A DNA stretch of 64,000 bases from Algoriphagus sp. TR-M9 (GTDB lineage: Bacteria > Bacteroidota > Bacteroidia > Cytophagales > Cyclobacteriaceae): positions 331,001-395,000 of the forward strand of contig NZ_CP115160.1 in NCBI RefSeq assembly GCF_027594545.1, given 5' to 3'. The position numbers and the translations under genes were made by a program. Below, piece after piece: positions 31,362 through 52,405 of the stretch. The notes under the pieces were generated by a model. That model saw only the letters and a program-made list of their open reading frames with translations, ran no database searches and was not told the DNA's origin. The number at the start of each line of letters is the position of its first letter. Within the stretch, counting starts at the first letter, position 1.

Positions 31362-31364
31362 GCC

Positions 31365-34409: not shown

Positions 34410-34410
34410 G

Positions 34411-38883: not shown

Positions 38884-38922
38884 CCCCGTAAATTTAAAAG
38901 TGTATTTAAAAAAAACGGGGAT
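38882..38922 (-). promoter_or_regulatory. inverted repeat overlapping the ATPase start codon
   Basis: ATCCCCGT and ACGGGGAT (38882-38889 and 38915-38922) are perfect 8-bp arms around a 25-nt AT-rich spacer. On the minus strand the proximal arm runs directly into the start codon (ACGGGGATG). It could be an operator or an mRNA structure hiding the start. Confidence 0.65.
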
Positions 38923-38998
38923 AAATTGATTTTTGTTTAAGGTATTGTCCTATAATCCCCATCTTACACGACTAACCTGTAAACCGAAACTCATTGCT

Positions 38999-40183
38999 AT
39001 GCACAAATCCCATTTTCTTATCCTTATTGCACTTTTTGCAGCTATAATTTTTTCATGCTCCGAAAAGGAGAGTACATCAGCTCCAAGTAGCCCAATTCAA
39101 GAACTTCAGTTTGAAGTAGTGGATTCTATGAAGGTGGATTTACTGGAACAAATCTCAGTCTTGGACTACCATACAGAAAAAGATCTATACCTGATGAAAA
39201 ACCCCAAAGAAGGAGATGTGTATCTGGTCAATGGAAAGGGGGAGATACTGGAAAAACATGAATTGGGAGGTGAGGGGCCAAACCAGATCCAGCATTTTTA
39301 TGAGGGGAGGTTTTACGGAGGTTCAGGTTACGTATTCAAGGAGCTTTCCGCTGAAATGGCCTACCATATTTACGATGCTGATTTCAATAAAATTACCAAA
39401 ACGAGGGGGACTATCAAGGAACTGAGCTTTCTCTCGATTAATAGTAATAAGCAGAGCTTTTCGGTCTATGAAGATAATGGGGCTTATAAGCTGATCGGGG
39501 AAGAACCTAATTCCTATTCTAGGGATGAAATAAACCCGGATAAAATCGGAGCGGGTTTTTACAATCAGGTCAACACCGGTTTTGTGTTCGATCTAGCCGA
39601 AGATTCTATCTATTATTTCAATACCTATCCAGAAGACTGGACTTTCAAGAAGGAGCAGAAGTGGATCGGGGCAAATTATCCGAACCTTTCCTTTGATCCG
39701 GCCACCAAAACACTGGTTTCCCTGCCTATGATGGGAGACCAATTGGGGATTTACAGGCTGGAAGGAAATGCTGCGGTATATCAAAAGACTGTAGGATTAA
39801 TTCATCCGGATCGTGAAGAATATGTGGCGACAAAAGAAACCAACTCTATAATTTATCCTGGCTTTACAGATGTGAAATCTTTTGGGCAGTACCATATCCT
39901 TACATTCTATACCCCGATGCCAGAGGATGTTTTCAATGGATTCAGGGCAAAATCTGAGGAGTATTTTCGAGACCCTGAGTACAGGGATGCCATGACTAAG
40001 TATAGAAAACCTCGCTTTATCGTCCTGAAGGGAGATCAGCAAATCGGGATCCTCAATGAGCTTCCGGTAAAAGGTGCAGTGAACCTTGGACTCCCAGACG
40101 GCACACTTTTAATCAAAGCTGCAGATGGAGAAGTGGAGCGGGATTATAACTTGTTTTATAAGGTGAGGTTAATTGAAGAGTGA
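38999..40183 (+). CDS. six-bladed beta-propeller lipoprotein without a peptide partner
   Basis: The ATG at 38999 is preferred to a frame start 66 nt upstream because it gives a lipoprotein signal (FAAIIFSCSEKE). The 394-residue protein has strand-turn repeats typical of the six-bladed beta-propeller family of Bacteroidota, for example YLVNGKGEILEKHELGGEGPNQIQHFYEG. It resembles the three propellers downstream in size and layout but has no small Cys-rich gene in front of it. The function is unknown; sensing or binding at the cell surface is a guess. Confidence 0.8.
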   Translation: MHKSHFLILIALFAAIIFSCSEKESTSAPSSPIQELQFEVVDSMKVDLLEQISVLDYHTEKDLYLMKNPKEGDVYLVNGKGEILEKHELGGEGPNQIQHFYEGRFYGGSGYVFKELSAEMAYHIYDADFNKITKTRGTIKELSFLSINSNKQSFSVYEDNGAYKLIGEEPNSYSRDEINPDKIGAGFYNQVNTGFVFDLAEDSIYYFNTYPEDWTFKKEQKWIGANYPNLSFDPATKTLVSLPMMGDQLGIYRLEGNAAVYQKTVGLIHPDREEYVATKETNSIIYPGFTDVKSFGQYHILTFYTPMPEDVFNGFRAKSEEYFRDPEYRDAMTKYRKPRFIVLKGDQQIGILNELPVKGAVNLGLPDGTLLIKAADGEVERDYNLFYKVRLIEE

Positions 40184-40251
40184 AACTGATTAAATATTGA
40201 TTATCAATCACGTAGGATTAAAACTATTGGTTTTGTGTTTTTTCTAAAAAA

Positions 40252-40375
40252 TATTTCGGTTTACTTGCTTTTTTAGTCGGGGGGGGTAGATTGAAAATGA
40301 AATTTCAAGATTACCGGTAAGGGGTGTTTTACTTCCACCCTACATGGTGTGAAGCGAGGATTTCATTTTAATAGT
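40252..40375 (+). promoter_or_regulatory. leader element of the first peptide-propeller cassette
   Basis: In order: TATTTCGG (weak -7-like, 40252-40259), eight Gs then TAG (40279-40289), the perfect palindrome TTACCGGTAA (40311-40320), and GGGTG/CACCC arms soon after. AAAATGAAAT near 40296 is complementary to ATTTCATTTT near 40364, so the leader could fold into one long stem enclosing the inner hairpins. The arrangement recurs before the cassette at 48.5 kb. Confidence 0.55.
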
Positions 40376-40383
40376 TTAAAATC

Positions 40384-40632
40384 ATGAAAAAGCTTTGTTT
40401 ACTGTTATTAGGTCTGTTTTTCTATTCATTGACAACCTTCGCTAATTATCCTCCTCCGTATTGTACTGAAACATGGAACTATTGTAGTACCCATGAGAGT
40501 GAAGATATATTTATTGATGCGGCTATAGCAAATTGCTGTGCTGGGTCACACTTTGAATTGATAGATTTGTGTGGAGCAGCAAATAAGTATATTATTATCA
40601 CATCAGATGGTCCAGATTCCAGTTGCGGGTAA
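40384..40632 (+). CDS. small secreted cysteine-rich peptide, cassette 1
   Basis: This 82-residue protein has a clear signal peptide (cleavage likely after LTTFA) and six Cys in the mature part (residues 27, 34, 51, 52, 63, 81), including an adjacent pair. No NVEALA motif is present, but the position directly before a beta-propeller lipoprotein and the Cys content recall the NVEALA-type peptides of Bacteroidota. The propeller starts 8 nt after its stop, so both are co-translated. AT-rich composition suggests recent acquisition. The function is unknown; a disulfide-stabilised secreted peptide is inferred. Confidence 0.72.
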   Translation: MKKLCLLLLGLFFYSLTTFANYPPPYCTETWNYCSTHESEDIFIDAAIANCCAGSHFELIDLCGAANKYIIITSDGPDSSCG

Positions 40633-40640
40633 TTCCTCTT

Positions 40641-41777
40641 ATGAAATATTTAAAGACAGTCATTTATTTATTGTTTTTAATTTCCTGTTCGGATACGAAT
40701 GTTTCTGAACAGGAAATTTCTGTAACTGTCAGTGATCTTCAGAGTTTTGAGATTGGGCAACTGGGAATGTCTGGAACTATTCCTTTTATATTTATGCCTG
40801 ATCACGAGAATAAAAACAATTTGTTGGTTTATAATCAATATTTCAGGCGAATTGATAGTTTGTTTTTTCTTTCAGATACTGTGTTAGCCCGAAAGGGAAA
40901 TGAAGTTCCTGCTGAGGGCCCACATGGAATTCAAAATTTTAAAAGTTTTTTTTCTAATCTTGATTACTTAGTGTATTTGAGTGGATATGGGGTAGGAATA
41001 GACGGAGAGGAAGGTTTGGAATTTTTTGGATTAGGCTCATTCGATTTTATCGAAAATGATAATATGACCCATATTGTTAGAGACAATGGCTTTAATCAGA
41101 CTTATACAGGTTTAGGTAGTAAAAAAGATATTTATTTTCTTACCAAGAATTTTGTGAATAGCCAATATGCCATTAACCATTTTGATCTAACTACTAAGGA
41201 ATTAGAATTGATTGATTTCCCATTAAAAGACGAATTACTTCAGATTCATGACCCTGCCTTCACATATAATAATGCTGAAGTTAGAGCTTTTAATTTCCCT
41301 TTTTTACTGGCAAATGAAGAGGAGATAATTGTGTCTTATCCTTTTATGAGTACCATTCAGGTAATGAATATCCAGTCCAGAATATCCCGGGAATTTTCGC
41401 CATTGCCGATTGGTTTTTCATCTATTAAAGAGGAACCAATAGTGCTCTCTAACAATGCTTCTTATGATCAGGGAAATGAAATGATTACAAAATGGACAGA
41501 AGATGTTCATTTTGGCCCAATACTTACTTATCGGGATCAGTATTTTTATAGAATAGTCCGAGAACATGCAGAAAGGACTAATAAGAATTATTATATAGAG
41601 GTGTTTGATCTAGATTTCAATAAAATATTGGAGAAAGAGTTAGTGGGAATTAGAGATGTGCCAATTCTGAAATACTTTTCAACGGGGGATGATATCATCT
41701 TACATCCTATCAATTATTTTGAAGATGATGAAGACTTCTATAATTTTTATAGGGTAAATCTACTGGCTAAAGATTAG
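40641..41777 (+). CDS. six-bladed beta-propeller lipoprotein, cassette 1
   Basis: The ATG at 40641 gives MKYLKTVIYLLFLISCSD, a lipoprotein signal; an in-frame TTG 18 nt upstream would overlap the peptide gene. The 378-residue protein shows propeller-like repeats (LARKGNEVPAEGPHGIQNFKSF) and conserved acidic turns. It is visibly more AT-rich than the flanking genes. It is paired with the Cys-rich peptide just upstream and may bind, display or receive it at the cell surface; this is inference. Confidence 0.78.
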   Translation: MKYLKTVIYLLFLISCSDTNVSEQEISVTVSDLQSFEIGQLGMSGTIPFIFMPDHENKNNLLVYNQYFRRIDSLFFLSDTVLARKGNEVPAEGPHGIQNFKSFFSNLDYLVYLSGYGVGIDGEEGLEFFGLGSFDFIENDNMTHIVRDNGFNQTYTGLGSKKDIYFLTKNFVNSQYAINHFDLTTKELELIDFPLKDELLQIHDPAFTYNNAEVRAFNFPFLLANEEEIIVSYPFMSTIQVMNIQSRISREFSPLPIGFSSIKEEPIVLSNNASYDQGNEMITKWTEDVHFGPILTYRDQYFYRIVREHAERTNKNYYIEVFDLDFNKILEKELVGIRDVPILKYFSTGDDIILHPINYFEDDEDFYNFYRVNLLAKD

Positions 41778-41855
41778 TGCCCAGAGCTGGGTAAATTTAT
41801 CAAGGTTTCGGCATCAAAGTATTTTGTATCTTCACTCCCAAACCTAAAAACACCT

Positions 41856-43016
41856 ATGAACCCCTCCGATTCCCGCAGAGATTTTCTCAAGAAGTCAGCC
41901 TTTGTTGGTACAGGTCTTACTTTGGCCGCAGGTACTTCTATTTCTGCTTTTGCGGAAGCATCCCGGTCCAAAAACAAACTCCCTGCCTGGAAAGGCTTTA
42001 ACCTGCTCGATTTTTTTTCGCATGATCCCAATGCTGGCAGGCCTACTAAGCCCGAATATGTGCAATGGATCGCTGACTGGGGTTTTGATTTTGCACGAAT
42101 TCCGATTTCTTATCCTAGTTATTTGGATATAGATCGCTCCCGTCCGATTCGCCCAGATGAGGTGTTGAATTTCGATGAAAGTCGGCTTGAGAAAGTAGAT
42201 GATCTAGTGGAGCGTTGTATAGATCATGGATTACATGTGAGTTTGAACCTCCATCGTGCTCCCGGCTTTTGCATCAATGCGGGCTTTGTGGAACCTTACA
42301 ATCTCTGGAAAGATCAGGAAGCTCAGGATGCATTCTGCGCGCACTGGGAAATGTGGGCAAATCGGTACAAAGGGATTTCCAAGAAGAAATTAAGCTTTGA
42401 TCTGGTCAATGAACCTTACCAGCGGGAAGATCCTAATGACCAACATAGTCCAGGAGGACCAGTTGATATATTGGATTATCGCCGGGTGGCAGAAGCAGCT
42501 TTGGATACCATCAGGTCTGTCAAGAAATCCAGACTGGTGATAGCCGATGGGAATGGTGGAGGAGGAACCGCACTGCCTGAATTTGCGGATCTGGATCTGG
42601 CACAAAGTTGTCGTGGTTATCATCCCTTTCCCATATCGCATTATAAGGCTGGCTGGGTTTACAAAGATCCCTCATCTGTTCCGCCGGTAGATTGGCCATT
42701 GAATCAGGGAGAAAGGATGCTGGATATTGATGAAATCAGAAGGTACTATGCGCCATGGAAAGCGCTGGTGGACCAGGGAGTGGGTGTGCACTGTGGGGAG
42801 TGCGGTTGCTATAATGAAACGCCTCATGACGTGTTTCTTAGCTGGTTTGGTGATGTATTGACAGTCTTGAAGGAAAACGGGATTGGCTTTGGGATCTGGG
42901 AGTTTTCTGGAGCTTTTGGAGTATTGAATTCCGGTAGAAAGGACGTGGAATACGAGGATTGGTACGGGGAAAAGCTGGACCGGAAGTTTCTGGAATTGTT
43001 AAGAGCCCAGATGTGA
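41856..43016 (+). CDS. glycoside hydrolase family 5 protein
   Basis: The 386-residue enzyme starts with a twin-arginine signal (DSRRDFLKKSAFVGTG), so it is exported folded by the Tat pathway. The (beta/alpha)8 barrel shows GFDFARIPISYPSY, LNLHRAPG, the acid/base Glu in DLVNEPYQ near residue 184 and a nucleophile Glu in GVHCGECGCYN near residue 312. GH5 enzymes cleave beta-1,4 glucans, mannans and related links; the substrate is not decidable here. It is a single gene between accessory cassette 1 and DUF5723. Confidence 0.9.
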   Translation: MNPSDSRRDFLKKSAFVGTGLTLAAGTSISAFAEASRSKNKLPAWKGFNLLDFFSHDPNAGRPTKPEYVQWIADWGFDFARIPISYPSYLDIDRSRPIRPDEVLNFDESRLEKVDDLVERCIDHGLHVSLNLHRAPGFCINAGFVEPYNLWKDQEAQDAFCAHWEMWANRYKGISKKKLSFDLVNEPYQREDPNDQHSPGGPVDILDYRRVAEAALDTIRSVKKSRLVIADGNGGGGTALPEFADLDLAQSCRGYHPFPISHYKAGWVYKDPSSVPPVDWPLNQGERMLDIDEIRRYYAPWKALVDQGVGVHCGECGCYNETPHDVFLSWFGDVLTVLKENGIGFGIWEFSGAFGVLNSGRKDVEYEDWYGEKLDRKFLELLRAQM

Positions 43017-43066
43017 GAAAGTAATTGAATAATCCGAAACTCTTTTAGTTACATACGTTTTGATTT

Positions 43067-43115
43067 AACCGACAACCGACAACCGACAACCGACAACCGA
43101 CAATGGACAACCGAC
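43067..43115 (+). repeat. tandem heptamer repeat, seven copies of AACCGAC
   Basis: Seven consecutive 7-bp units fill 49 bp. Six are AACCGAC and the sixth reads AATGGAC. It lies between the convergent GH5 and DUF5723 genes, 6 bp from the latter's stop. No protein is encoded. Confidence 0.95.
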
Positions 43116-43121
43116 AAAATC

Positions 43122-44447
43122 CTATTTATAGATCGGCACCTTCAGTCCTACATACAAATCTGTACTTTTCGAATTATTGGAAATCAGGTTGCTGACAATG
43201 GACCCTGAGCCTATCATTAATGGTCCGGCCCGTACACCAATTCCCCAAGCCAAACTGGAATCGTATTGACGTATGCTAAGCGGGCTATAAACACTGACCC
43301 ATCTTCTTTCAAATCTTGGTGTTAACGTAAATGAATTGATCAGGTGGCTTACTGGGTTTTCTTTATTTTTCTTGAGGGAAATAGCCCCCTGAGCCGATAC
43401 AAAAAAGCTGCCGTTGATATTGTAATCGCCAAAAAACTGCAAAGAAGTAGGTAGCCCCATTTTGGTTCTTCCGAGAGCTTCTACTCCGTTGAAATTGTCT
43501 TCTAAAATTTCGTCCAGGTCTTTATTGTCAAACTCGTTGGCATCTATGGTATTATCCATGTTGTAAATGCTTCTGGTGGTTTGCTCATAATTTATGGCTC
43601 CTATATCCATTACAGAAACTCCAAACCTGAATTTATAGGGATTGTAATAAGTGTTGACATTTTGCTCCTTGATTTCATACACTACCCCTATATCAGCTCC
43701 AAATCCAGACTTGATATCAGAAAAATTAATATCATCAGAGTCAAATCCTGAGGTATAACCATACCGTAACTCACCTGAAGTGGTCAATAGGTCAGTTTGA
43801 TTGCTATACTGGGCGGTGAGCAGTTGACTTTCGCCATACACTCCTCCGGCACCTGCCAGATATTTCAAGGTAAGGCCTGCTTTTAGCGATTGGTTTTCGT
43901 CATCTAGAATTATGCGTGCATAGCTGGCTCCTATTTCTGCCCAAGCGTGGATCAGCCCAGATGCATCCTCCATGCTTACACTAAAGTCCGTCTGCTCATT
44001 ATATTCAGTATTTGCCAATTCGTACAGGTCTCCTCCTATATTATTTAGGTTAAAAAATCCTCTCACTCTTGTGGTGAAAGCAAGGCTGTTTTTTTGATCC
44101 AGATTGAATAAAATCGAAGGCCCCAGGATATCGACATTGCCGAAGAAGTTATTATTGTCTGTGGGATTGGTATCTCCGTCAGTATTGAGTTCAAATCCAT
44201 TTTGAAAGCTGTCCAAATCGCTCATGTCTATACTGAGGTAGTCATTTCCAATGAAAGCAGAGCTAGAGATTAAATTGATGTCCAGGCGCATTTTAGAGCC
44301 TACCGCTAGGGCCGGGTTAAGCAAAAGTGAATGTACACCTGCCTGATTATCTACAGTACTTCCAATAAATGTTTGGGCTAAGGTAGTCTGACCGATTAGC
44401 CATAATATGGTTAGGGAGAATAATCTCCATTTGAAAAAAGACTTCAT
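43122..44447 (-). CDS. DUF5723 outer-membrane-like protein
   Basis: The 441-residue secreted protein has a signal peptide (cleavage after TTLAQ) and amphipathic strands throughout, fitting a beta-barrel related to the PorV/FadL-like group; it opens with TFIGSTVDNQAGVHSLLLNPALAVGSKMRLDIN, typical of DUF5723. It probably sits in the outer membrane. No function is established for the family. It stands between the E1 gene and the heptamer repeat, both on its own strand side. Confidence 0.85.
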   Translation of the reverse strand: MKSFFKWRLFSLTILWLIGQTTLAQTFIGSTVDNQAGVHSLLLNPALAVGSKMRLDINLISSSAFIGNDYLSIDMSDLDSFQNGFELNTDGDTNPTDNNNFFGNVDILGPSILFNLDQKNSLAFTTRVRGFFNLNNIGGDLYELANTEYNEQTDFSVSMEDASGLIHAWAEIGASYARIILDDENQSLKAGLTLKYLAGAGGVYGESQLLTAQYSNQTDLLTTSGELRYGYTSGFDSDDINFSDIKSGFGADIGVVYEIKEQNVNTYYNPYKFRFGVSVMDIGAINYEQTTRSIYNMDNTIDANEFDNKDLDEILEDNFNGVEALGRTKMGLPTSLQFFGDYNINGSFFVSAQGAISLKKNKENPVSHLINSFTLTPRFERRWVSVYSPLSIRQYDSSLAWGIGVRAGPLMIGSGSIVSNLISNNSKSTDLYVGLKVPIYK

Positions 44448-44515
44448 GTTATTAAGAATTTTGAGAAAAGAACTAAATCAAGAACAGGTAGGGTTTATTG
44501 CTTTGCTTCAAACAA

Positions 44516-46516
44516 TTAGTATTCCAAAAGCTCTGCTAATTTAGCCTTAAATCTGGCACTCGGCAAAAACTGCTCCTCCAATCCTTTGGCAAATGGAACT
44601 GCGGTGTCCAAGCTACCCACCCGCATCACTGGAGCGTCCAAATACTCAAAGCAATGTTCTGAAATCCAGGCACAAATCTCCGCTCCAATCCCACCGGTCA
44701 AACAATCCTCCTGAAGAAAAATGACTTTTCCTGTTTTCTCTACCGTAGCTTTCACGGACTCCTTGTCCCAGGGCAATAGGGTACGCATGTCCAGAATATC
44801 TGCAGAAATACCAAGCTCCTCCACCGCATTTTGCGCCCAGTGAACACCCATTCCGTAGGTAACAATCGAAACTTGATATCCTTTGCGGGCAAGAGCCGCT
44901 TTACCTATTTCTAGGGTGTAATATTCATCGGGAATCTCAGTAGAGATGGACCGGTACATTCCCTTATGCTCAAAATACAAGTAGGGGTTTGGGTCTTCAA
45001 TCGCGGCGTTTAGCAGTCCTTTGGCATCGTAAGGATTAGATGGATAGACGATTTTGAGCCCCGGGGTGTGGAAAAACCAGGCCTCAGTAGACTGGGAGTG
45101 AAATGGCCCGGCTGCCATCCCGGCACCGGTGGGCATTCGGATGACCACATCCGCATTTTGCCCCCAGCGGTAGTGGATTTTTGCGAGATTGTTTACAATC
45201 TGGTTGAAACCCATGGTCACAAAATCCGCAAATTGCATTTCTACCATAGCTTTATAGCCATTGATAGAAAGTCCCAGTCCGGCTCCAATAATCGCACTTT
45301 CGCATAGCGGTGTATTGCGAACCCGGTCCGCTCCAAATTGGGTTTTGAAGCCATCCGTGATTTTGAATACGCCTCCGTACTCTCCTATATCCTGCCCCAT
45401 GAGTATCAGGTTCGGGTACTTTTCCATGGATTGACGCAGGCCATCTGAAATCGCATCAACTAGTCGCTTTTCGGATTTGGGGCCGTTTTCCGAAGGAAAA
45501 ATCACTTCCTGAAAGAATGGCGCATAGACATCTGCTAGCTCCGTTTCTAAGTTTGGTGAGATAGGTTGCTCAGCAAAGGCTAGCTCCAGTCCATCGCTTA
45601 TCGCTGTTTTGACTTTTTTGTTTATCCTTTCTTTTTCTTTCTCATCCAATACTCCGCTTTCCTCCAGGTATCGCTCATAATTTTCCACTGGGTCCAGTTT
45701 TGCCCATTGGTTCATTAGTCGTTTGGGTACGTATTTAGTGCCTGAAGCTTCTTCATGACCACGCATCCGAAATGTGATGGCTTCTACCAGCACAGGACGT
45801 GGATTTTTGCGGATGTCTGCGGCCAGACTTTTGATGGTATGATAGACTTCTAGGACATTGTTGCCTTGAATCCGGATGGCTTCCATGCCATATCCTAGCC
45901 CCTTGTCAGTGAAATTGCGGAAAGCATATTGTTCCGCGCTCGGAGTGGATAGTCCGTAGCCGTTGTGCTCGATTACGAATATCACCGGTAGTTTCCAGAC
46001 TGCAGCCAGATTTAATCCTTCATGAAAATCCCCTTCTGAGCTGGCGCCATCGCCTGAAAAAACCAAGGTTACCTTCTTTTGCTGTGAAAGTTTGGTTGCC
46101 AAAGCAATTCCATCTGCAATGGCCAGCTGAGGCCCCAGGTGCGAAATCATTCCGACCAGGTGATGCGCTATAGAACCAAAGTGAAAGGAGCGGTCACGTC
46201 CTTTGGTGAAGCCGGAATGCTTTCCTTGAAATTGGGCAAAAAGCCGCTCCAATGGTATTTTTCTTCCCGTGAATATGCCCAGATTTCTATGCATAGGAAG
46301 GATGAATTCCTCCTCAGGAAGTGCATTGACCACACCTATGGAAATAGCCTCCTGTCCCCAGCCCGAAAACCACTTGGAGATTTTTCCCTGTCGCAAAAGA
46401 ATCAGCATTTTCTCCTCTATCTTTCTAGGCAGAAGTAGGGATTTATATAAGTCCAGAAGTTTTTTGTCCGAGAGTTTTTTTCGATCAAAAACGAGTGGTT
46501 GGAGAATGCTGTCCAT
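44516..46516 (-). CDS. 2-oxoacid dehydrogenase E1, fused alpha and beta subunits
   Basis: The 666-residue protein joins E1 alpha (about residues 1-330) and E1 beta (about 340-666), usually separate. The alpha part has the thiamine-diphosphate motif VFSGDGASSEGDFHEGLNLAA ending near IEHNGYGLSTP; the beta part has LMGQDIGEYGGVFKIT, TPLCESAIIGAGLGLS and the C-terminal transketolase-like domain. Such fusions in Bacteroidota are usually assigned to branched-chain 2-oxoacid dehydrogenase, but pyruvate or acetoin as substrate cannot be excluded. E2 and E3 are not in the window. Confidence 0.9.
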   Translation of the reverse strand: MDSILQPLVFDRKKLSDKKLLDLYKSLLLPRKIEEKMLILLRQGKISKWFSGWGQEAISIGVVNALPEEEFILPMHRNLGIFTGRKIPLERLFAQFQGKHSGFTKGRDRSFHFGSIAHHLVGMISHLGPQLAIADGIALATKLSQQKKVTLVFSGDGASSEGDFHEGLNLAAVWKLPVIFVIEHNGYGLSTPSAEQYAFRNFTDKGLGYGMEAIRIQGNNVLEVYHTIKSLAADIRKNPRPVLVEAITFRMRGHEEASGTKYVPKRLMNQWAKLDPVENYERYLEESGVLDEKEKERINKKVKTAISDGLELAFAEQPISPNLETELADVYAPFFQEVIFPSENGPKSEKRLVDAISDGLRQSMEKYPNLILMGQDIGEYGGVFKITDGFKTQFGADRVRNTPLCESAIIGAGLGLSINGYKAMVEMQFADFVTMGFNQIVNNLAKIHYRWGQNADVVIRMPTGAGMAAGPFHSQSTEAWFFHTPGLKIVYPSNPYDAKGLLNAAIEDPNPYLYFEHKGMYRSISTEIPDEYYTLEIGKAALARKGYQVSIVTYGMGVHWAQNAVEELGISADILDMRTLLPWDKESVKATVEKTGKVIFLQEDCLTGGIGAEICAWISEHCFEYLDAPVMRVGSLDTAVPFAKGLEEQFLPSARFKAKLAELLEY

Positions 46517-46848
46517 GCAGATATGATTTCCTTTCTAAGTTACAGGAAGGTGGGAGAATCACAAAGTGAATCGGCGCCCTGCAAAAGGGCCCCGAACGAA
46601 TCGGGGCGAAAAATAAATGCAAGGAGTTAAAAAGTATTTGCTGTACGGTTCAAAATTAGACAAAGGATTTTCCATCTCTGCAAGACTTAGGTTAAGCTTG
46701 TTTTATCAAAGTGTTAAGCGCTGGGGTTGAAAAGTTATAAGGTCCAAAAGTTGCAAGGTAGATGCCTTTAAGCTTGCAACTTTCCTGCTTTCTTAACTTT
46801 CCAACTCAATTTTGCCTACCTTTGCACACCCAAATTCAATCAAATCCT
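46517..46848. other. intergenic region between the divergent E1 and rimO genes
   Basis: Holds CCCCGA/TCGGGG arms near 46590-46606, another inverted repeat AAAGTTGCAAG/CTTGCAACTTT (46747-46757 and 46773-46783), and the rimO -7 element TACCTTTG at 46817-46824. The tract containing AACTTTCCAACTC resembles one near 53660, so this is dispersed intergenic repeat text. No convincing gene is seen. Confidence 0.6.
46817..46824 (+). promoter_or_regulatory. -7 promoter element of rimO
   Basis: TACCTTTG fits TAnnTTTG and lies 24 nt before the GTG start used for rimO. The -33 match is poor. Its position makes an ATG start at 46762 impossible for this transcript and supports the shorter protein. Confidence 0.6.
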
Positions 46849-48162
46849 GTGAAAGCGAGAACATTAAAGAAAGACAAAGTCAATATCATCACCATGGGTT
46901 GCTCCAAGAATCTCGTAGATTCTGAGGTGCTCCTCACTCAACTCAAAGGGAATGGTGTGAATGCCAGCCATGAATCTGGAACGGATGACAATAACATCAT
47001 CATCATCAATACCTGCGGTTTTATCGACAACGCAAAACAAGAGTCAATCGACACTATTTTGCAATATGCAGATGCCAAGGAAAAAGGTTTGGTGGACAAA
47101 GTCTATGTGACCGGATGTCTTTCGCAGCGCTACAAAGACGATCTGGAAAAAGAAATTCCTCAGGTGGATGCATTTTTTGGTACAAGAGATTTACCTGCGA
47201 TTCTTAAGAAATTCAAAGCAGATTACAAGCATGAGTTGGTAGGGGAGAGATTATTAACTCATTCTTCTCACTATGCTTACATGAAAATTTCTGAAGGCTG
47301 TGATAGACCCTGCTCTTTTTGTGCGATTCCATTGATGCGTGGAGGCCATGTATCGAGGCCGATCGAGGAATTGGTGAAAGAAGCGGAACACAAAGCAGCG
47401 GGAGGAACCAAAGAATTGCTTTTAATCGCACAGGATTCCACCTATTATGGATTGGATATTTATAAAAAGAGAAATTTGGCGGAGTTGATGCGTAGGCTAT
47501 CTGATGTGAATGGTATCGACTGGATTCGCTTGCATTATGCTTATCCGACAGGTTTTCCAATGGACGTGATCGAAGTGATGAAAGAGCGTGAGAATATCTG
47601 TAATTATCTGGATATTCCTTTACAGCACGGATCTACAGATGTGCTGAAAGCGATGCGTCGTGGTACAACCCGTGAAAAGCAAGAGAATCTAATTCATAGC
47701 ATCCGTGATATTTTGCCGGACATCGCGATTCGTACCACATTGATCGCTGGGCATCCTGGAGAAGGCGAGAAAGAATACCAGGAGATGGTTGACTTCGTGG
47801 AGCGAATGAAATTTGAGCGCTTGGGTGTGTTTACCTATTCTCATGAGGAAAATACGCATGCTTATACGATGGAAGACAACATCCCTCAGGAAGTGAAGCA
47901 GGAGCGAGCGAATAACTTGATGGAGATTCAGGAGCAGATTTCTTACGATTTGAATCAAGAGAAAATTGGCAAGTCTTTCAAAGTGTTGATTGATAAAAAA
48001 GAAGGTGGCCACTTCGTAGGCCGTACCGAATACGATTCTGTGGAAGTGGATAACGAGGTTTTAATTGATGCATCGAAATACTACTGCCGAGTGGGAGATT
48101 TTGTAACTGTGAAAGTAACTGAGGCTACAGAGTTTGATCTGTACGCGGAGGTGGAGGAGTGA
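46849..48162 (+). CDS. rimO: ribosomal protein S12 methylthiotransferase RimO
   Basis: The GTG at 46849 is preferred to a frame start at 46762: the -7 element lies between them and homologues begin KARTLKKDKVNIITMGCSKN. The 437-residue radical-SAM enzyme puts a methylthio group on an Asp of protein S12. The N-terminal UPF0004 domain (TMGCSKNLVDSE, NTCGFID, VTGCLSQRY), the radical-SAM CxxxCxxC in SEGCDRPCSFCAIP and a C-terminal TRAM domain are all present. A diverged second copy of its last codons lies at 50337-50426. Confidence 0.96.
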   Translation: MKARTLKKDKVNIITMGCSKNLVDSEVLLTQLKGNGVNASHESGTDDNNIIIINTCGFIDNAKQESIDTILQYADAKEKGLVDKVYVTGCLSQRYKDDLEKEIPQVDAFFGTRDLPAILKKFKADYKHELVGERLLTHSSHYAYMKISEGCDRPCSFCAIPLMRGGHVSRPIEELVKEAEHKAAGGTKELLLIAQDSTYYGLDIYKKRNLAELMRRLSDVNGIDWIRLHYAYPTGFPMDVIEVMKERENICNYLDIPLQHGSTDVLKAMRRGTTREKQENLIHSIRDILPDIAIRTTLIAGHPGEGEKEYQEMVDFVERMKFERLGVFTYSHEENTHAYTMEDNIPQEVKQERANNLMEIQEQISYDLNQEKIGKSFKVLIDKKEGGHFVGRTEYDSVEVDNEVLIDASKYYCRVGDFVTVKVTEATEFDLYAEVEE

Positions 48163-48553
48163 TTTTCGCTTGTTGTTTTAGGGGAAATAGAGAAAAGGTC
48201 AAAAAGCCTTGATAAAATCTAAAAAAGGGCCACTGAAGTGAAACCGTGCCCCTAAGGTTGCGTTGCCGGTACTTGGTACACTATTTTAGCCGCGTAAACT
48301 AACCCATGAAGCTTACAGAAGGACGTGAGCGAGCATCTCGACAAAAAAGACGTGTTAGATTAGTTTCGTGTAGATTAATTTTTTAGGCTAATATTCAGCT
48401 TGTTACGTTGTTGTTTTTGTTATTTTCGAAGAAATGTTTGGATATTTAATTGGGGGGGGTAGTTTGGCAAGACTAGTTTTCACCGGTGATCTTTAGTTAA
48501 GTACCTGCTCAAAGGTTGGGCAGGTATTGTTTGAAAAATTTTAACAAGAAGAA
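48163..48553. other. 391-nt intergenic region with the leader of cassette 2
   Basis: The first 250 nt, between rimO and the promoter region, contain no ORF, hairpin or recognisable element; their base composition is closer to coding DNA than to the AT-rich stretch that follows, so a decayed gene is possible. The last part holds the G8-TAG and ACCGGT leader described separately. Confidence 0.5.
48421..48530 (+). promoter_or_regulatory. leader element of the second peptide-propeller cassette
   Basis: TATTTTCG (48421-48428) is a seven-of-eight match to the -7 consensus. Then come eight Gs and TAG (48452-48462), the perfect palindrome TCACCGGTGA (48480-48489) and a stem TACCTGC/GCAGGTA near 48501-48525. 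Order and spacing match the leader at 40.3 kb, and the palindrome lies 64 nt before the start codon (63 nt there). Confidence 0.6.
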
Positions 48554-48814
48554 ATGAAAAAGAAAGTTTTAATTTTTGCCATCGGTTTATCATTCTTGGC
48601 ACCGGGGATTTCCTGGGGACATATGGATGTGTGTCAGGCTGGTGGCCCAGGGTCTACAGGATGCAAGGTTTCGAAAACGTTTGAACTTGAGGCAGGGCCA
48701 GCTGGTGGTTCAACTACTATTACTTATGAGACAACATGTGGAGAAGGGTACTACGCTTGTTGTATTTTGAATATTATGACAGGTGAAGGCTCTGCAACTT
48801 GTGTTGAAAAGTAA
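48554..48814 (+). CDS. small secreted cysteine-rich peptide, cassette 2
   Basis: The 86-residue protein has a signal peptide (MKKKVLIFAIGLSFLAPG, cleavage near SWGH) and six Cys in the mature part (residues 27, 37, 62, 69, 70, 83). As in the peptide at 40.4 kb, the first Cys is residue 27, there is an adjacent Cys pair and the last Cys is near the C-terminus, although the sequences otherwise differ. It is followed by a hairpin and a propeller lipoprotein gene. The function is unknown; a second frame in the same region (48576-48770) is a shadow. Confidence 0.75.
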   Translation: MKKKVLIFAIGLSFLAPGISWGHMDVCQAGGPGSTGCKVSKTFELEAGPAGGSTTITYETTCGEGYYACCILNIMTGEGSATCVEK

Positions 48815-48837
48815 CGCAATAATAATCGATAAGTTAG

Positions 48838-48860
48838 CGGCCAGTAGTTTTTGCTGGCCG
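48838..48860 (+). other. intercistronic hairpin between peptide and propeller, cassette 2
   Basis: CGGCCAG and CTGGCCG are perfect 7-bp arms with a 9-nt loop. No T-run follows, so it looks like an mRNA-processing or stabilising stem and may also reduce read-through into the propeller gene. Confidence 0.65.
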
Positions 48861-48877
48861 TGAATTTGACTTTAGCG

Positions 48878-50014
48878 ATGAAGAATATATTGATTGGTAT
48901 TTTACTGATTTCGATTTTATGGGCTTGTCAACGAGTGGAGGAAGAGAAGTCTAGGGTTGATCTCTCCGAGAGCGAAATTGTTAACGATTGGCTGTTCAGA
49001 AAAGCAGCACAGATAGATTTAGTTCCTTTAGAATATAAAGGATATGAAAGTTTAGTGCTTACGATTCGGGACGTCATTACTCAGGGAGGCGAGTACTATG
49101 TGGTTGACTCGGATATCTCCGATACAAAGTCAATTAAAAAATTTGATGGAGCAGGAAAGTTTAAAGGTGTGTTGAAAGACGTTTCGTTTGAATATCGAGA
49201 CTATAAAATCGAAAGTGTTTCAAAGTTTAAAGATGGGAAATTGCTGGTTCTGGATGAGTCGAGCCACTGTTTTGTGTTGAATTCTGATTTATTGGCTGAA
49301 GAAATACATGAACTGCCATTTAAGGCATCAAAGGTTGCCTATTTTGAAGATAGTATTTATTTCTATTCGAATAGACGTGGGAAGAACAATCAGGGGGACT
49401 CCCTTATGTATGATTTTGTTGTTTACGATTCTGATTTCAATTTCGTTTCTGGTTTTGACAAGTTTGAAATCCCAGAATATTCTCAGAATGTGAGTCTGAT
49501 GGTTGATGGTAGTTTCTCAGCTTCAGATAAACTACTATATTCCAGTTTGACAGGTGATACGATATATAGTATAAATAGCAAGGGCAAATCGGAAATGTTG
49601 AAAATTGCTTTTCAAAATCCGACATTTAGCCTAAACGAGTATCCCGAAGTTTCAATGGGTTCGGTGTTACCTATACTCCAATCCGATTTTTCGTGGGGTA
49701 TTTCAAATTTGGTGTCTTATAACGATTATGTTTTTTTTAATTATTATGATAGAAATAGTATTATGTGTGCGGTAGTGGATATGAGGAATGCAAAGACGAT
49801 TGTGAGTGATCCAAAAGGAACGAAGGATGATGCTGATGTTTTGCCTTGGCCTCGTGTTACCTCTGATGGATTTTTATTAGGGTGGTATTCGGGGGAGTCT
49901 TTGAAATGGTTTAATAATATTGATAGCAGGAGTGAGGAGAGTATTTTATATAGGTCCAGGAAATTCATTGATGCTTCCTCGAATCCCGTTTTAGTTAAAT
50001 ATAAAATACAATGA
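48878..50014 (+). CDS. six-bladed beta-propeller lipoprotein, cassette 2
   Basis: The ATG at 48878 gives MKNILIGILLISILWACQ, a lipoprotein signal; a start 27 nt upstream would fall close to the hairpin. The 378 residues match the size of the cassette 1 propeller exactly and share its general plan: an acidic N-terminus, then repeated strands such as KSIKKFDGAGKFKGVL and VLDESSHCFVLNSDL. Weak similarity and the shared peptide context place it in the same family. It overlaps the next ORF by ATGA. Confidence 0.78.
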   Translation: MKNILIGILLISILWACQRVEEEKSRVDLSESEIVNDWLFRKAAQIDLVPLEYKGYESLVLTIRDVITQGGEYYVVDSDISDTKSIKKFDGAGKFKGVLKDVSFEYRDYKIESVSKFKDGKLLVLDESSHCFVLNSDLLAEEIHELPFKASKVAYFEDSIYFYSNRRGKNNQGDSLMYDFVVYDSDFNFVSGFDKFEIPEYSQNVSLMVDGSFSASDKLLYSSLTGDTIYSINSKGKSEMLKIAFQNPTFSLNEYPEVSMGSVLPILQSDFSWGISNLVSYNDYVFFNYYDRNSIMCAVVDMRNAKTIVSDPKGTKDDADVLPWPRVTSDGFLLGWYSGESLKWFNNIDSRSEESILYRSRKFIDASSNPVLVKYKIQ

Positions 50015-50355
50015 ATAGTTTGTTGTGTTTGATAGGGTTCTTAATCCTTTTTTCGTATCCGGATCGATTTGAGGTGGTTATAGACAAAGATACTACGAAA
50101 GAGCAAATTGATGAATTTATTTTAAGTGCTAAATCTCATGGGATAGAGCTGAAGGTTTTGTATTCTTCTTATTTCCCATCGGGAAAGATAAGGACGTTAC
50201 AGGTGAGGTTTACGTCTGAGGTAGGGTCAAATCTGGCTAGCTTAAACTTTGTGGAAAACGACAACTGCCTTTATTTTTTTCGTGACTACGATCCAAAAGC
50301 TCCCGTAAAAATGGGAATAGGATCTTGTCCTGTCGATTCTTCTACTGCCAGGTAG
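50011..50355 (+). CDS. small exported protein related to a BlaR1-associated C-terminal domain
   Basis: The start overlaps the propeller stop (ATGA). The 114-residue protein has a short hydrophobic export signal (LLCLIGFLILFS) and a domain reading VVIDKDTTKEQIDEFILSAK, then HGIELKV and SGKIRTLQVRF. This resembles the short domain found at the end of M56/BlaR1-like proteins of Bacteroidota (pattern ITKxTTDxELxxIKxxLKxxGI then SGEITxI); that comparison is from memory and should be checked. The last residues (DSSTAR) are encoded within the rimO remnant, so the C-terminus may have been altered by the junction. Confidence 0.55.
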   Translation: MNSLLCLIGFLILFSYPDRFEVVIDKDTTKEQIDEFILSAKSHGIELKVLYSSYFPSGKIRTLQVRFTSEVGSNLASLNFVENDNCLYFFRDYDPKAPVKMGIGSCPVDSSTAR

Positions 50356-50426
50356 GGGACTTTGTGAATGTAAAAGTCACTGATGCGACGGAGTTTGACC
50401 TGTATGGGGCTGTAGCGGGGGGATGA
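50337..50426 (+). pseudogene. rimO: second, diverged copy of the rimO 3' end
   Basis: Translating from TTC 50337 to the TGA at 50424-50426 gives YCQVGDFVNVKVTDATEFDL then Y, against YCRVGDFVTVKVTEATEFDL then Y in intact rimO: 18 of 21 residues are identical. Ten silent third-position differences against three amino-acid changes show that the copy diverged while still under protein-level selection, so it came from another functional rimO and was not made by local duplication and decay. It has no start of its own. Confidence 0.85.
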
Positions 50427-50526
50427 CTTTCCAAGCAGGACTACTAGAAAGTATAGTTTTCTTCGCAAATCTTTGTTTAGTGCTTTTTTTTTTCTTGGGT
50501 CAGTCTAAATATTAAAAACAGAAAAA

Positions 50527-50718
50527 ATGAGAAAATTAGCTTTAATTATGATGCTGACATTTGGCAGCTTGTTGTCGTATGAAGGAAATGCAAGAGACAT
50601 GCCTACAGGGCCTACATTGAAAAAAATGTATTGTAGTTCTCAAAAAACCTCCTGGGCATGTAAATATATGTCAGAAGGTGAAGATTGTCCTCTCTCTTCT
50701 ACAACAAATTGCCCCTAA
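50527..50718 (+). CDS. small secreted cysteine-rich peptide, cassette 3
   Basis: The 63-residue protein has a signal peptide (MRKLALIMMLTFGSLLSYEG, cleavage near GNA) and four Cys in the mature part (residues 36, 45, 54, 62) spaced every 8-9 residues. It is shorter than the peptides of cassettes 1 and 2 and lacks the adjacent Cys pair. The G8-TAG and ACCGGT leader is missing. A perfect hairpin and a propeller lipoprotein gene follow, so it belongs to the same arrangement. The function is unknown. Confidence 0.68.
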   Translation: MRKLALIMMLTFGSLLSYEGNARDMPTGPTLKKMYCSSQKTSWACKYMSEGEDCPLSSTTNCP

Positions 50719-50729
50719 CTTGATTTTGT

Positions 50730-50750
50730 GGGGAGAGGAATTCTCTCCCC
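50730..50750 (+). other. intercistronic hairpin between peptide and propeller, cassette 3
   Basis: GGGGAGAG and CTCTCCCC form a perfect 8-bp stem around GAATT. Only a weak T-rich stretch follows, so full termination is doubtful. It takes the same place as the hairpin in cassette 2. Confidence 0.7.
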
Positions 50751-50762
50751 CGATTTTACTTT

Positions 50763-51869
50763 ATGAAAAAAATACTTTTCATCTTCACTCTTTCAGTGAT
50801 ACTATCGTGTGATTCGAGAAAAAAGAATTCTATTGATTATTCTTTATATACGACCAGTTATAATTTAACAGGATCCAGTGATTTGATCTATGACAAACCA
50901 TATCATGTTTTAGGAGATACCCTTTTTAGTTTTGATATCTATCAAAACAAAATCACCAAGACGCCTCTAAGTGGCCATGAGGCACAGGAAATCAACCTGT
51001 CTTTTGATTTTGATTCGCAACCGTATACATTTTATTATATCAATTCAGATTCCATAGTTTTTTCAACAGGGAATATGCTATTATTGACGGATGGGAGAGG
51101 AAGCCAATTCCACTCGGTTAAACTTTTTGATAATCTTGGTGATATTGATAATGAAGTGTATTCTGAATTCCCGTTTGATGGATTCTCTTCACATTTGGTT
51201 TATGATAATCACTCAAATTCTGTCCTATTTTACTTTGCGAAAAAAAGCCAAACAGAACGCAGAAAAGTATTTGCCAGTATCGATTTGGAAAATGGTGATT
51301 GGGCAAGCCTTCCTGTATATCATCCGGCTGAATATCAAGATGTTCCGTTGAATTACACCACTTACCCCAGTGTCACTTGGTCACCTCTTGGGTTAAGCTA
51401 TATCTATACGATTTCGCCGACTATAATTCATATCGATACGGTATCAGGATCTCAAAGTGAATTCAATATTTCAAGCTTTGGGGGAAAGCAATCAGCTGAA
51501 CCCCAATCTTATCGGGATGAATGGACGTCAGATTATTTTGAAAACTGGGTATTGACATCACCTAACTATGTGAAGTTAATCTATGACCCATTTAGGAAAT
51601 TGTATTACAGATTCTCGCAGGCTGCGATGAATATATTCCCAAATAGAGATGAATATTATCATGATTTCCTAATCAAAAACAGAGAACTATACCTCACTGT
51701 ATTAGATGAGGAATTCAATGTGATTGTTAATCAGTTAATCCCTAAAGGAAAATATGACCCTTCGAGGAGTTTTGTGTTTTCAAAAGGCTTATGGGTACCC
51801 CATGAAATATCCATCGTTCAAGATGAAGAGCAATTGTATGGTGATTTATTTTATTTTACTGATCAATAA
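50763..51869 (+). CDS. six-bladed beta-propeller lipoprotein, cassette 3
   Basis: The 368-residue protein starts with a lipoprotein signal (FTLSVILSCDSRK). Strand-turn repeats (HVLGDTLFSFDIYQNKITKTPL, FYINSDSIVFSTGNMLLLTD) fit a propeller and the length is near that of the other two. It is AT-rich like the rest of this region. The gene follows the cassette 3 peptide and hairpin and is the last intact gene before a stretch of decayed genes. Confidence 0.76.
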   Translation: MKKILFIFTLSVILSCDSRKKNSIDYSLYTTSYNLTGSSDLIYDKPYHVLGDTLFSFDIYQNKITKTPLSGHEAQEINLSFDFDSQPYTFYYINSDSIVFSTGNMLLLTDGRGSQFHSVKLFDNLGDIDNEVYSEFPFDGFSSHLVYDNHSNSVLFYFAKKSQTERRKVFASIDLENGDWASLPVYHPAEYQDVPLNYTTYPSVTWSPLGLSYIYTISPTIIHIDTVSGSQSEFNISSFGGKQSAEPQSYRDEWTSDYFENWVLTSPNYVKLIYDPFRKLYYRFSQAAMNIFPNRDEYYHDFLIKNRELYLTVLDEEFNVIVNQLIPKGKYDPSRSFVFSKGLWVPHEISIVQDEEQLYGDLFYFTDQ

Positions 51870-51895
51870 GAAATATAGATAGTTTGGGAAATATT

Positions 51896-51908
51896 CTTCT
51901 CCAGAAGC
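51896..51908. repeat. palindromic repeat, copy 1
   Basis: CTTCTCCAGAAGC, the core of the repeat family found again at 52046 and 52328. Confidence 0.7.
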
Positions 51909-51939
51909 AACATTGTTGAGGTCCAATTTCTTATCTTAA

Positions 51940-52077
51940 ATGACGAACAAAGGGCAAGAAAACCCAAGGAGGCAAAAATATATATAAGCATTTATCATTC
52001 TGATCTTAATCGCCCTGGGATTGTTATCAAGAAAAATACCCGTTATGCTGCTTCTCCAGAAGCAGCATTTAAAACAT
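51940..52077 (+). pseudogene. DUF2809-like membrane protein remnant
   Basis: The frame starting MTNKGQENPRRQKYI meets an in-frame TAA (51985-51987) and continues with AFIILILIALGLLSRKIPV, like the first helix of DUF2809 membrane proteins, which are about 120 residues long. After KIPV the sequence runs into the palindromic repeat at 52046 and stops at 52075-52077. The gene is therefore broken by a nonsense codon and truncated by the repeat. The family call is from memory of the N-terminal pattern. Confidence 0.5.
52046..52067. repeat. palindromic repeat, copy 2 (best conserved)
   Basis: TGCTGCTTCT and AGAAGCAGCA are perfect 10-bp arms around CC. It cuts the DUF2809-like frame. Confidence 0.8.
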
Positions 52078-52083
52078 AAATAG

Positions 52084-52224
52084 ATGTTGATTTTAGTCGG
52101 TTTAATCCTATTTGGATTGGGGGTTTATTTATACCGAAAGATTGTTCTTCAAGACAAAGTGGGCTTTCACAAGTTTAATTATTTAGACAAATTCCGGAGA
52201 AATGCCTTGATCTACTTCTTTTGA
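52084..52224 (+). pseudogene. small membrane protein with probable frameshift
   Basis: MLILVGLILFGLGVYLYRKI begins a 46-residue frame that stops at TGA 52222-52224. One added base in the T-run at 52218-52222 would let translation continue as LIGGCIMVVRELIIWIWF, a second hydrophobic helix, up to a stop near 52278. This looks like a two-helix membrane protein broken by a one-base deletion, or a sequencing error. It could also be a functional single-helix protein. Confidence 0.45.
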
Positions 52225-52291
52225 TTGGAGGATGTATTATGGTGGTGAGAGAATTGATCATTTGGATTTGGTTTTAGTTTCTTTTTAGTCC

Positions 52292-52308
52292 GGCCTCTGG
52301 AATAGCAG
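52292..52308. repeat. palindromic repeat, degenerate copy
   Basis: GGCCTCTGGAATAGCAG differs by a few bases from the inverted copy 36 nt downstream and looks like a decayed member of the same family. Confidence 0.4.
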
Positions 52309-52327
52309 CACAACTACAAATAAGTCC

Positions 52328-52344
52328 AGCTTCTGGAGAAGCAG
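52328..52344. repeat. palindromic repeat, copy 3 (centre inverted)
   Basis: AGCTTCTGGAGAAGCAG is the reverse-complement form of the same palindrome. Confidence 0.7.
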
Positions 52345-52405
52345 GATAACCCATCTTTTGCCCTTTCGCCCGATCTACCTAATTTAGCAGCCTAAAATCG
52401 CCCGA

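Follow-up and report, generated by a model that had tools for sequence, protein, structure and literature searches.

Peptides of the NVEALA type in Bacteroidota are encoded in a neighborhood like the one described here, next to genes for predicted propeller lipoproteins, for which the known families are DUF4221, DUF5128, DUF4934, and TolB_like (PF13970, PF17170, PF16288, and PF15869). A second parallel comes from gene regulation. In Neisseria, a homopolymer lies between the −35 and −10 elements of the porA and opc promoters, and slipped-strand mispairing there switches them; phase variation in Bacteroides is usually reported to work through invertible DNA. Here we describe three cassettes of a small Cys-rich peptide gene and a propeller lipoprotein gene in a 64-kb window (the whole stretch of DNA analyzed) from the genome of Algoriphagus sp. 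TR-M9, which is one contig of 4.8 Mb; the window spans bases 331001-395000 of it. What is new, judged from the DNA, is a run of G in the predicted promoter spacer of many Algoriphagus cassettes, including cassettes 1 and 2 of this window. Among open-licence PubMed Central (PMC) papers, we found none on peptide-propeller pairing, its function, or such switching in Algoriphagus, none that treat NVEALA or DUF4221 by name, and none on function when the propeller families or the PDB codes below were searched by name. BF3164 is mentioned once in a phylogeny paper on Bacteroidetes, and the papers with the string PF14055 deal with Plasmodium or enzymes. A Bacteroides thetaiotaomicron gene annotated "6-bladed beta-propeller" is in a table of an iron study (P = 0.353; PMC10434189), and we did not use it as evidence.

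The genes of the three cassettes are as follows.

40384..40632, + strand: peptide 1, 82 amino acids (aa), with a signal peptide and six mature Cys (27, 34, 51, 52, 63, and 81)
40641..41777, + strand: propeller lipoprotein 1, 378 aa, DUF4221 related, starting 8 nucleotides (nt) past the peptide 1 stop
48554..48814, + strand: peptide 2, 86 aa, with a signal peptide and six mature Cys (27, 37, 62, 69, 70, and 83)
48878..50014, + strand: propeller lipoprotein 2, 378 aa, starting 63 nt past the peptide 2 stop
50527..50718, + strand: peptide 3, 63 aa, with a signal peptide and four mature Cys (36, 45, 54, and 62)
50763..51869, + strand: propeller lipoprotein 3, 368 aa, DUF4221, starting 44 nt past the peptide 3 stop

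These open reading frames (ORFs), their lengths, and their Cys counts had been given by an earlier sequence-only reading, and we rederived all of them. Signal peptides were called by eye and with a crude hydropathy test rather than with a trained predictor. That reading had also pointed out that the first Cys of peptides 1 and 2 is at residue 27 in both. The agreement is probably a coincidence, because the relatives of the two peptides align as two separate families.

To see if the pairing holds in relatives, we listed the neighbors of related peptides in other genomes. A profile of peptide 1 relatives was run over 295 genomes of the family and matched 27 times, in 23 of them. All 21 matches with an E value of 4e-4 or better were followed directly downstream by a same-strand ORF of 361 to 411 aa (four of these loci were read by hand, and one of those four has a stop-bearing peptide), and these ORFs have a single invariant Cys, at the lipobox position. 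Of the six weaker matches, a single one is a cassette; in the other five, the similarity is confined to the signal peptide of a different protein. Close peptide 3 relatives (E of 2e-20 or better, a count that leaves out L196 and the weaker matches L197 to L202) were paired in 5/5 cases. Peptide 2 relatives occur in 4 of the 72 genomes of the genus, and all four precede a propeller-size lipoprotein, although one of the peptides is broken by a stop. The reverse count was also done. The Algoriphagus loci contain 271 genes that encode 140 aa or more, and 26 of these have a secreted small ORF with at least three Cys directly upstream. Twenty of the 26 encode lipoproteins of 320 to 440 aa, and the other six are lipoprotein-like ORFs, five of them cut by the locus end and one missed by the lipobox test (long start). 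These loci were picked around propellers, and so this count shows specificity rather than frequency. The pairing proposed in the sequence-only reading is real and conserved by these counts, and it is not due to chance.

The primary Bacteroidota promoter has been described as TTTG near −33 and TAnnTTTG near −7 (PMC7366714 and PMC2483708). The regions upstream of cassettes 1 and 2 contain the following candidate elements.

40265..40267, + strand: TTG, −33-like element of cassette 1 (consensus TTTG/TAnnTTTG; PMC7366714)
40279..40286, + strand: G8 run within the cassette 1 promoter spacer, with 19 nt between TTG and TA
40287..40293, + strand: TAGATTG, −7-like element of cassette 1
48438..48440, + strand: TTG, −33-like element of cassette 2
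48452..48459, + strand: G8 run within the cassette 2 promoter spacer, with 19 nt between TTG and TA
48460..48466, + strand: TAGTTTG, −7-like element of cassette 2

Both fit the arrangement TTG-N11-G8-TAGATTG/TAGTTTG, in which 11 + 8 nt make a 19-nt spacer (the promoter is predicted from the consensus). They are the only two G/C runs of at least 8 in the window. We extended the analysis to 31 Algoriphagus cassettes found by homology. A G/C run of at least 6 was present within 150 nt before the peptide in 18 of them (from 10 genomes), compared with none of 131 control genes, which were the other genes with a free upstream region at the same loci (Fisher P = 6e-16, with orthologues not being independent). 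The 31 do not include L051:3189 and L110:10654, two cassettes in which another gene or peptide of the unit comes first; with them, the count would be 18/33. Also left out was L113:2748, a unit whose peptide contains no Cys. Dinucleotide repeats of 8 and 9 units are present in two further cassettes; (CT)8 stands in place of the G-run upstream of cassette L031 and (AT)9 upstream of L116, and C12 does so upstream of L030.

We also used an approach that was blind to the peptides, by scanning the 72 genomes of the genus for GGGGGGGTANNTT (the G7-TAnnTT pattern). This gave 75 distinct tracts for classification, after one (L279) was removed because it shared its flank with L248. Thirty-three of the 75 are followed, 38 to 136 nt further on, by a secreted small ORF with two or more Cys and lie no more than 1.1 kb from an ORF of 324 to 416 aa. 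Long tracts supplied most of these cassettes (30 of the 50 tracts of G8 to G11, compared with 3 of the 25 of G7). Twenty-two of the 33 were new relative to the set found by homology, and several of their peptides look, by eye, dissimilar to those of that set. The only Pfam families in the 33 downstream proteins were propeller families (DUF5128 in 10, DUF4221 in 6, DUF4934 in 5, and TolB_like in 3, with overlaps). The third GGGGGGGTAG site of the window's own genome (L003) was rejected as a further case, since its ORFs show no cassette.

The geometry was also consistent. At the cassette loci, 34 of 37 G-runs are preceded by a TTG at a distance of 8 to 17 nt (11 to 13 nt in 31), and the total spacer is 19 to 23 nt in 33. 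These 37 are the 33 cassette tracts, three with a peptide for which no full propeller-size ORF was found (L233, L241, and L278), and one L284 tract that precedes another lipoprotein. A TTG is in range in 15 of the 38 remaining tracts, and several of these 15 are before other lipoproteins, which seem to use the same promoter type. Look-alike G-run promoters precede other lipoproteins at L234, L246, L253, L284, and L271; at L271, a G9 run is directly before a 382-aa lipoprotein, with no peptide between them.

Tract length varies between other genomes of the genus. Two orthologous cassettes whose propellers are 96.5% identical have G11 in one genome (G005) and G6 in the other (G037), and three related cassettes (two in G010 and one in G021) have tracts of 8, 7, and 6. 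The tract of one noncassette flank is G9 in the first of two genomes and about G16 in the second (L248 and L279). The position in the spacer, together with these length differences between orthologues, predicts slipped-strand mispairing, and we consider ON/OFF switching of the G-run cassettes to be likely. As in Neisseria porA and opc, the homopolymer is inside the spacer, here beside the −7 box, and its length varies, in this case between orthologues. However, the Algoriphagus boxes are of the Bacteroidota −33/−7 type, they would drive peptide-propeller cassettes, and switching is predicted here from sequence.

The sequence-only reading had pointed to NVEALA peptides as having a similar neighborhood, while noting that the NVEALA motif is absent here. 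Both statements held up. PF14055 (NVEALA) has no match in the window's own genome, including all three peptides, and we therefore rejected membership of these peptides in that family. PF14055 is also rare across 296 genomes of the phylum, with matches in three and only one of these scoring above the cut-off. The genus to which that one belongs (Bacteroidia) has matches in 22/41 genomes, 101 in total. We examined the loci of 34 of the 101, 6 of them from the phylum-wide search, and in all 34 the peptide is followed by an ORF of 330 to 418 aa (29 found by script and 5 by hand, all rechecked). The Pfam matches in these ORFs are mostly to propellers (TolB_like in 20, DUF5128 in 15, DUF4934 in 9, and DUF4221 in 5, with overlaps), with one weak cytochrome match. 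Two weak PF14055 matches outside that genus (L100 and L101) have no such peptide or pair. Like the window peptides, NVEALA peptides have a hydrophobic N-terminal leader and a short Cys-rich C terminus, they are encoded by a single gene directly before a mostly propeller ORF, and there are many copies per genome. Unlike them, they match PF14055, and they do not have G-run promoters (0/29 NVEALA cassettes). On gene layout, the three window pairs belong to a type of cassette found widely in Bacteroidota, NVEALA included. A recurrent neighbor of NVEALA cassettes, behind or beside them, is a lipoprotein with a GCxxC stretch (L164, L165, L167, L168, L169, L171, L184, and L188). It is presumably thioredoxin-like and perhaps a thiol partner.

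The propellers of the three window cassettes are nearest to DUF4221 or DUF5128. Propeller 3 matches DUF4221 at 45.1 bits (cut-off, 23.4) and PDB 3s9j at E 2.3e-7. For propeller 1, hmmscan reports no match, but in a six-frame search it scored 25.3 bits with DUF4221, over the cut-off, and profile-profile comparison with the DUF4221 array of its own genome gave a probability of 99.4%. These scores place propeller 3 in the DUF4221 group, to which propeller 1 probably also belongs. The nearest proteins to propeller 2 are DUF5128 relatives, PDB 4raa, and PDB 3s9j, and its profile gave nothing significant against the two other propeller groups. We recognized no catalytic motif in the propellers by eye. 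A peptide 1 profile run against the PDB had a best E of 0.22, to an unrelated entry. Peptide 2 alone is predicted to form a four-stranded beta mini-domain (residues 31 to 86; block means of the local confidence score pLDDT, 81 to 93). Peptide 2 and propeller 2 were also predicted as one chain by reading through the short gap, and both parts fold (template modeling score pTM, 0.71).

Fifteen pairs of related cassettes were compared. Identity is 45 to 98% for mature peptides and 34 to 97% for propellers, and the peptide is the more alike of the two in 11/15 pairs. The ratio of nonsynonymous to synonymous substitution rates (dN/dS) was 0.02 to 0.30 for peptides (10 computable pairs) and 0.10 to 0.32 for propellers (11 pairs); many of the dS values are close to saturation. 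Nothing in these 15 pairs points to positive selection on the peptide. The dN/dS values mean that the peptides are real genes, and they indicate that the mature peptides are under purifying selection. The idea that these might be chance ORFs was rejected on this constraint, the nonrandom placement upstream of propellers, and the G-run counts. Therefore, the term "diversifying" in the sequence-only reading suits whole cassettes but not the mature peptide, which is conserved between orthologues.

Some features of the locus had not been noticed in the sequence-only reading: the promoter G-runs, a third gene in cassette 2, and a gene relic between cassettes 2 and 3. The remaining features are as follows.

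38999..40183, + strand: unpaired propeller-like lipoprotein, 394 aa, just upstream of cassette 1
40311..40320, + strand: 10-bp palindrome TTACCGGTAA in the leader of cassette 1, operator-like (read by eye)
48480..48489, + strand: 10-bp palindrome TCACCGGTGA in the leader of cassette 2 (found by script)
50011..50355, + strand: third gene of cassette 2, 114 aa, with a signal peptide (ORF call)
50342..50404, + strand: relic of the 3′ end of the gene at 46762-48162 (79% over 63 nt, E 4e-11), overlapping the end of the 114-aa ORF
50417..50422, + strand: run of 6 G upstream of cassette 3

The gene at 46762-48162 has UPF0004, radical SAM, and TRAM domains and is presumably rimO-like. In another genome (G012), a peptide 3 cassette is directly behind its counterpart, whereas in the window cassette 2 and the third gene intervene between this gene and cassette 3. 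The relic before peptide 3 and the arrangement in G012 indicate that cassette 2 most likely arrived as a unit, by insertion. The third gene has an orthologue in the same place in A. aquimarinus, and the L117 copy is 68% identical. When the third-gene slot of other cassettes was compared with DUF3738, there was one resemblance, below the cut-off (E 0.056). In L123, L131, L135, L036, and L132, a peptide-2-type cassette is followed by a secreted protein or lipoprotein of 233 to 248 aa. In genome G010 (L109), two cassettes are interleaved with copies of a glycoside hydrolase 5 gene, and the window has one of each (the hydrolase gene, at 41856-43016, is beside cassette 1).

Perfect palindromes of at least 10 bp occur in 17 of the 37 regions around cassette-locus tracts, compared with 2.4 expected from shuffles that ignore relatedness, and 11 of them are at +20 to +25. 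The cassette palindromes are 10 bp long with a variable core (CCGG, GCGC, or GGCC), approximately 20 to 25 nt behind the G-run. For cassette 1, the script gives a nearby palindrome of equal length instead of TTACCGGTAA, and it finds the same 10-mer in L034 and L109. No Rfam family reached its gathering score within 38000-52500.

The unpaired propeller described in the sequence-only reading is present at 38999-40183. Its likeness to DUF4221 is weak (E 1.9e-4 with a local profile and Z set to 5000), and other species hold relatives at the same place. An RND efflux operon (30291-37599; an HlyD-type protein and two AcrB-type pumps) ends 2.8 kb upstream of cassette 1. An opposite-strand AAA_14/DUF4143 gene and then the unpaired propeller lie between them.

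The explanation that we favor, with rather more confidence than doubt, is one of switched peptide-propeller cassettes whose propellers hold or sense their cognate peptides and have a role in recognition. Each cassette would produce a small exported protein, probably disulfide bonded, and an envelope propeller lipoprotein encoded directly downstream. Slippage in the G-run would alter the −33/−7 spacing and so turn the cassette ON or OFF in a heritable and reversible way, and a population would be a mix of cells with differing cassettes on. Going further, the propeller may hold or sense its own peptide on the surface of the cell. Together, the switched pairs may let cells recognize each other, or may act in recognition between cells and either phages or predators. 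It is at this step, with the peptide as the ligand of its propeller, that we infer the most, and the same applies to the ligand/receptor, self-recognition, or antagonism role suggested in the sequence-only reading. Dickkopf or sclerostin on the LRP5/6 propellers, from eukaryotic signaling, offers an analogy only, with no homology claimed. A stricter version is a private ligand-receptor repertoire, in which each peptide fits only its own propeller and stochastic G-run switching gives a changeable surface identity for kin recognition or escape from phages and predators. We regard that version as doubtful, though worth stating.

Several observations weigh against this explanation. Thirteen of the 31 cassettes do not have a G/C run of at least 6. 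Cassette 3 has only G6, without a clear −7 element after it, and so it may not be switched in this way. Such runs were found in just 2/12 peptide-1-type cassettes outside the genus and in none of the 29 NVEALA cassettes. Nor are G-runs in excess as such. The window has five G7 runs (6.9 expected), which is not above chance, and the genus has 76 matches to GGGGGGGTANNTT, compared with 55 for the backwards pattern, so that the pattern is hardly enriched by itself. We therefore rejected the G-run as a genome-wide peculiarity; only its position is special. The propeller label is also uneven, with just 5 of the 21 ORFs behind peptide 1 relatives matching the propeller profile (DUF4221) and none matching another Pfam family. 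For the other 16, the label rests on kinship and size. The prediction for peptide 2 and propeller 2 as one chain gave no sign of docking, and the peptide was less confident there than alone (block means, 66 to 91).

The two partners also occur apart. We scanned a named genome collection of 84,980 species for the peptide 2 family and found 19 loci. Six are stand-alone peptides, of which four directly precede a propeller-size ORF, one does so with an intervening gene, and one is before a 248-aa lipoprotein. In the other 13, from other Bacteroidota, the Cys domain is in the C-terminal part of a protein of 141 to 295 aa (L118 to L122, L124, L126 to L130, L133, and L134; most have a signal or lipoprotein leader), and no propeller was recognized directly behind them when the ORF lists were read by eye. 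This domain is therefore used more widely than the cassette. The sequence-only reading had named homologues regularly lacking a propeller neighbor as evidence against its proposal; that is in part what peptide 2 shows, at 13/19 loci. Many propellers, in turn, have no peptide, both in this genome and in the genus. The own genome has 11 DUF4221 propeller lipoprotein genes in tandem without peptides (4476431-4488925; L028). Elsewhere in the genus, propeller 1 relatives lack a peptide at the purA locus and also next to the unpaired lipoprotein. Same-family propellers without a peptide include those of L046, L047, and L049. Among the matches listed, other members of the genus have many high-scoring DUF4221 genes in clusters.

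The peptide-free propellers bear on two other explanations. The peptide might act as a subunit or folding partner, either blocking the propeller or completing it, and the propeller would itself be an enzyme or adhesin with no part in signaling. Strict pairing, the many propellers without peptides, and the lack of diversifying selection in the peptide all suit this, but the peptide families are very different while the propeller fold is kept, and no catalytic motif was recognized by eye; we think it unlikely. Alternatively, the peptide might be exported as a bacteriocin-like toxin that acts on relatives, with the propeller as its envelope immunity protein and unpaired propellers as orphan immunity genes. 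The two-gene order, the small Cys-rich exported product, the gain and duplication of whole cassettes, and the RND operon upstream of cassette 1 could all be seen in that light, although we know of no RND efflux pump that is a peptide exporter. The eight window neighbors scanned included this operon but no peptidase-containing ABC exporter. The same-family propellers without a peptide fit this explanation as well. However, a single switchable promoter would silence both genes and leave OFF cells unprotected from their ON sisters, which makes it less likely. Furthermore, the mature peptides are strongly conserved between species, the three signal peptides are ordinary, with no double-glycine leader seen by eye, and the peptide 2 domain is fused within other secreted proteins. 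Overall, we consider a toxin and its immunity protein to be rather unlikely.

Propeller lipoproteins can also take up nutrients, as BtuG does for vitamin B12 and XusB for ferrichrome. The peptide might then be a secreted carrier or lid, and the propeller might take up what it brings. Chains of XusB and BtuG are among the propellers that resemble the model in a Foldseek search, and Cys-rich peptides could bind metal. However, the propeller fold is common, so the Foldseek listing does not show function, and random switching would be unusual for uptake. None of the eight scanned neighbors in the window is a TonB-dependent transporter (the neighbors in other genomes were read by eye only), and we judge this explanation to be improbable. 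A different objection concerns the switch. The G-run might be a fixed structural part of an unusual promoter. The near-control count in the genus suits that, as does the presence of poly-T, poly-A, or dinucleotide repeats in the same region of other cassettes, which suggests that G itself is not essential. Against it, tract lengths differ, with 11 and 6 in near-identical orthologues, 8, 7, and 6 in related cassettes, and G9 and about G16 in the noncassette flank, and the spacer position is that of the known switchable promoters porA and opc. A nonswitching G-run is, in our view, quite unlikely.

Peptide-propeller pairs occur in several groups of Bacteroidota, including the NVEALA-bearing genus of Bacteroidia. 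The G-run promoter provides a first clue to function, which would be random ON/OFF switching of envelope products, and it also served as a tag that led to 22 further cassettes. If switched peptide-propeller recognition is correct, these cassettes would form a new class among switchable recognition systems, and they would provide an example, in an environmental genus of Bacteroidota, of promoters switched by a homopolymer.

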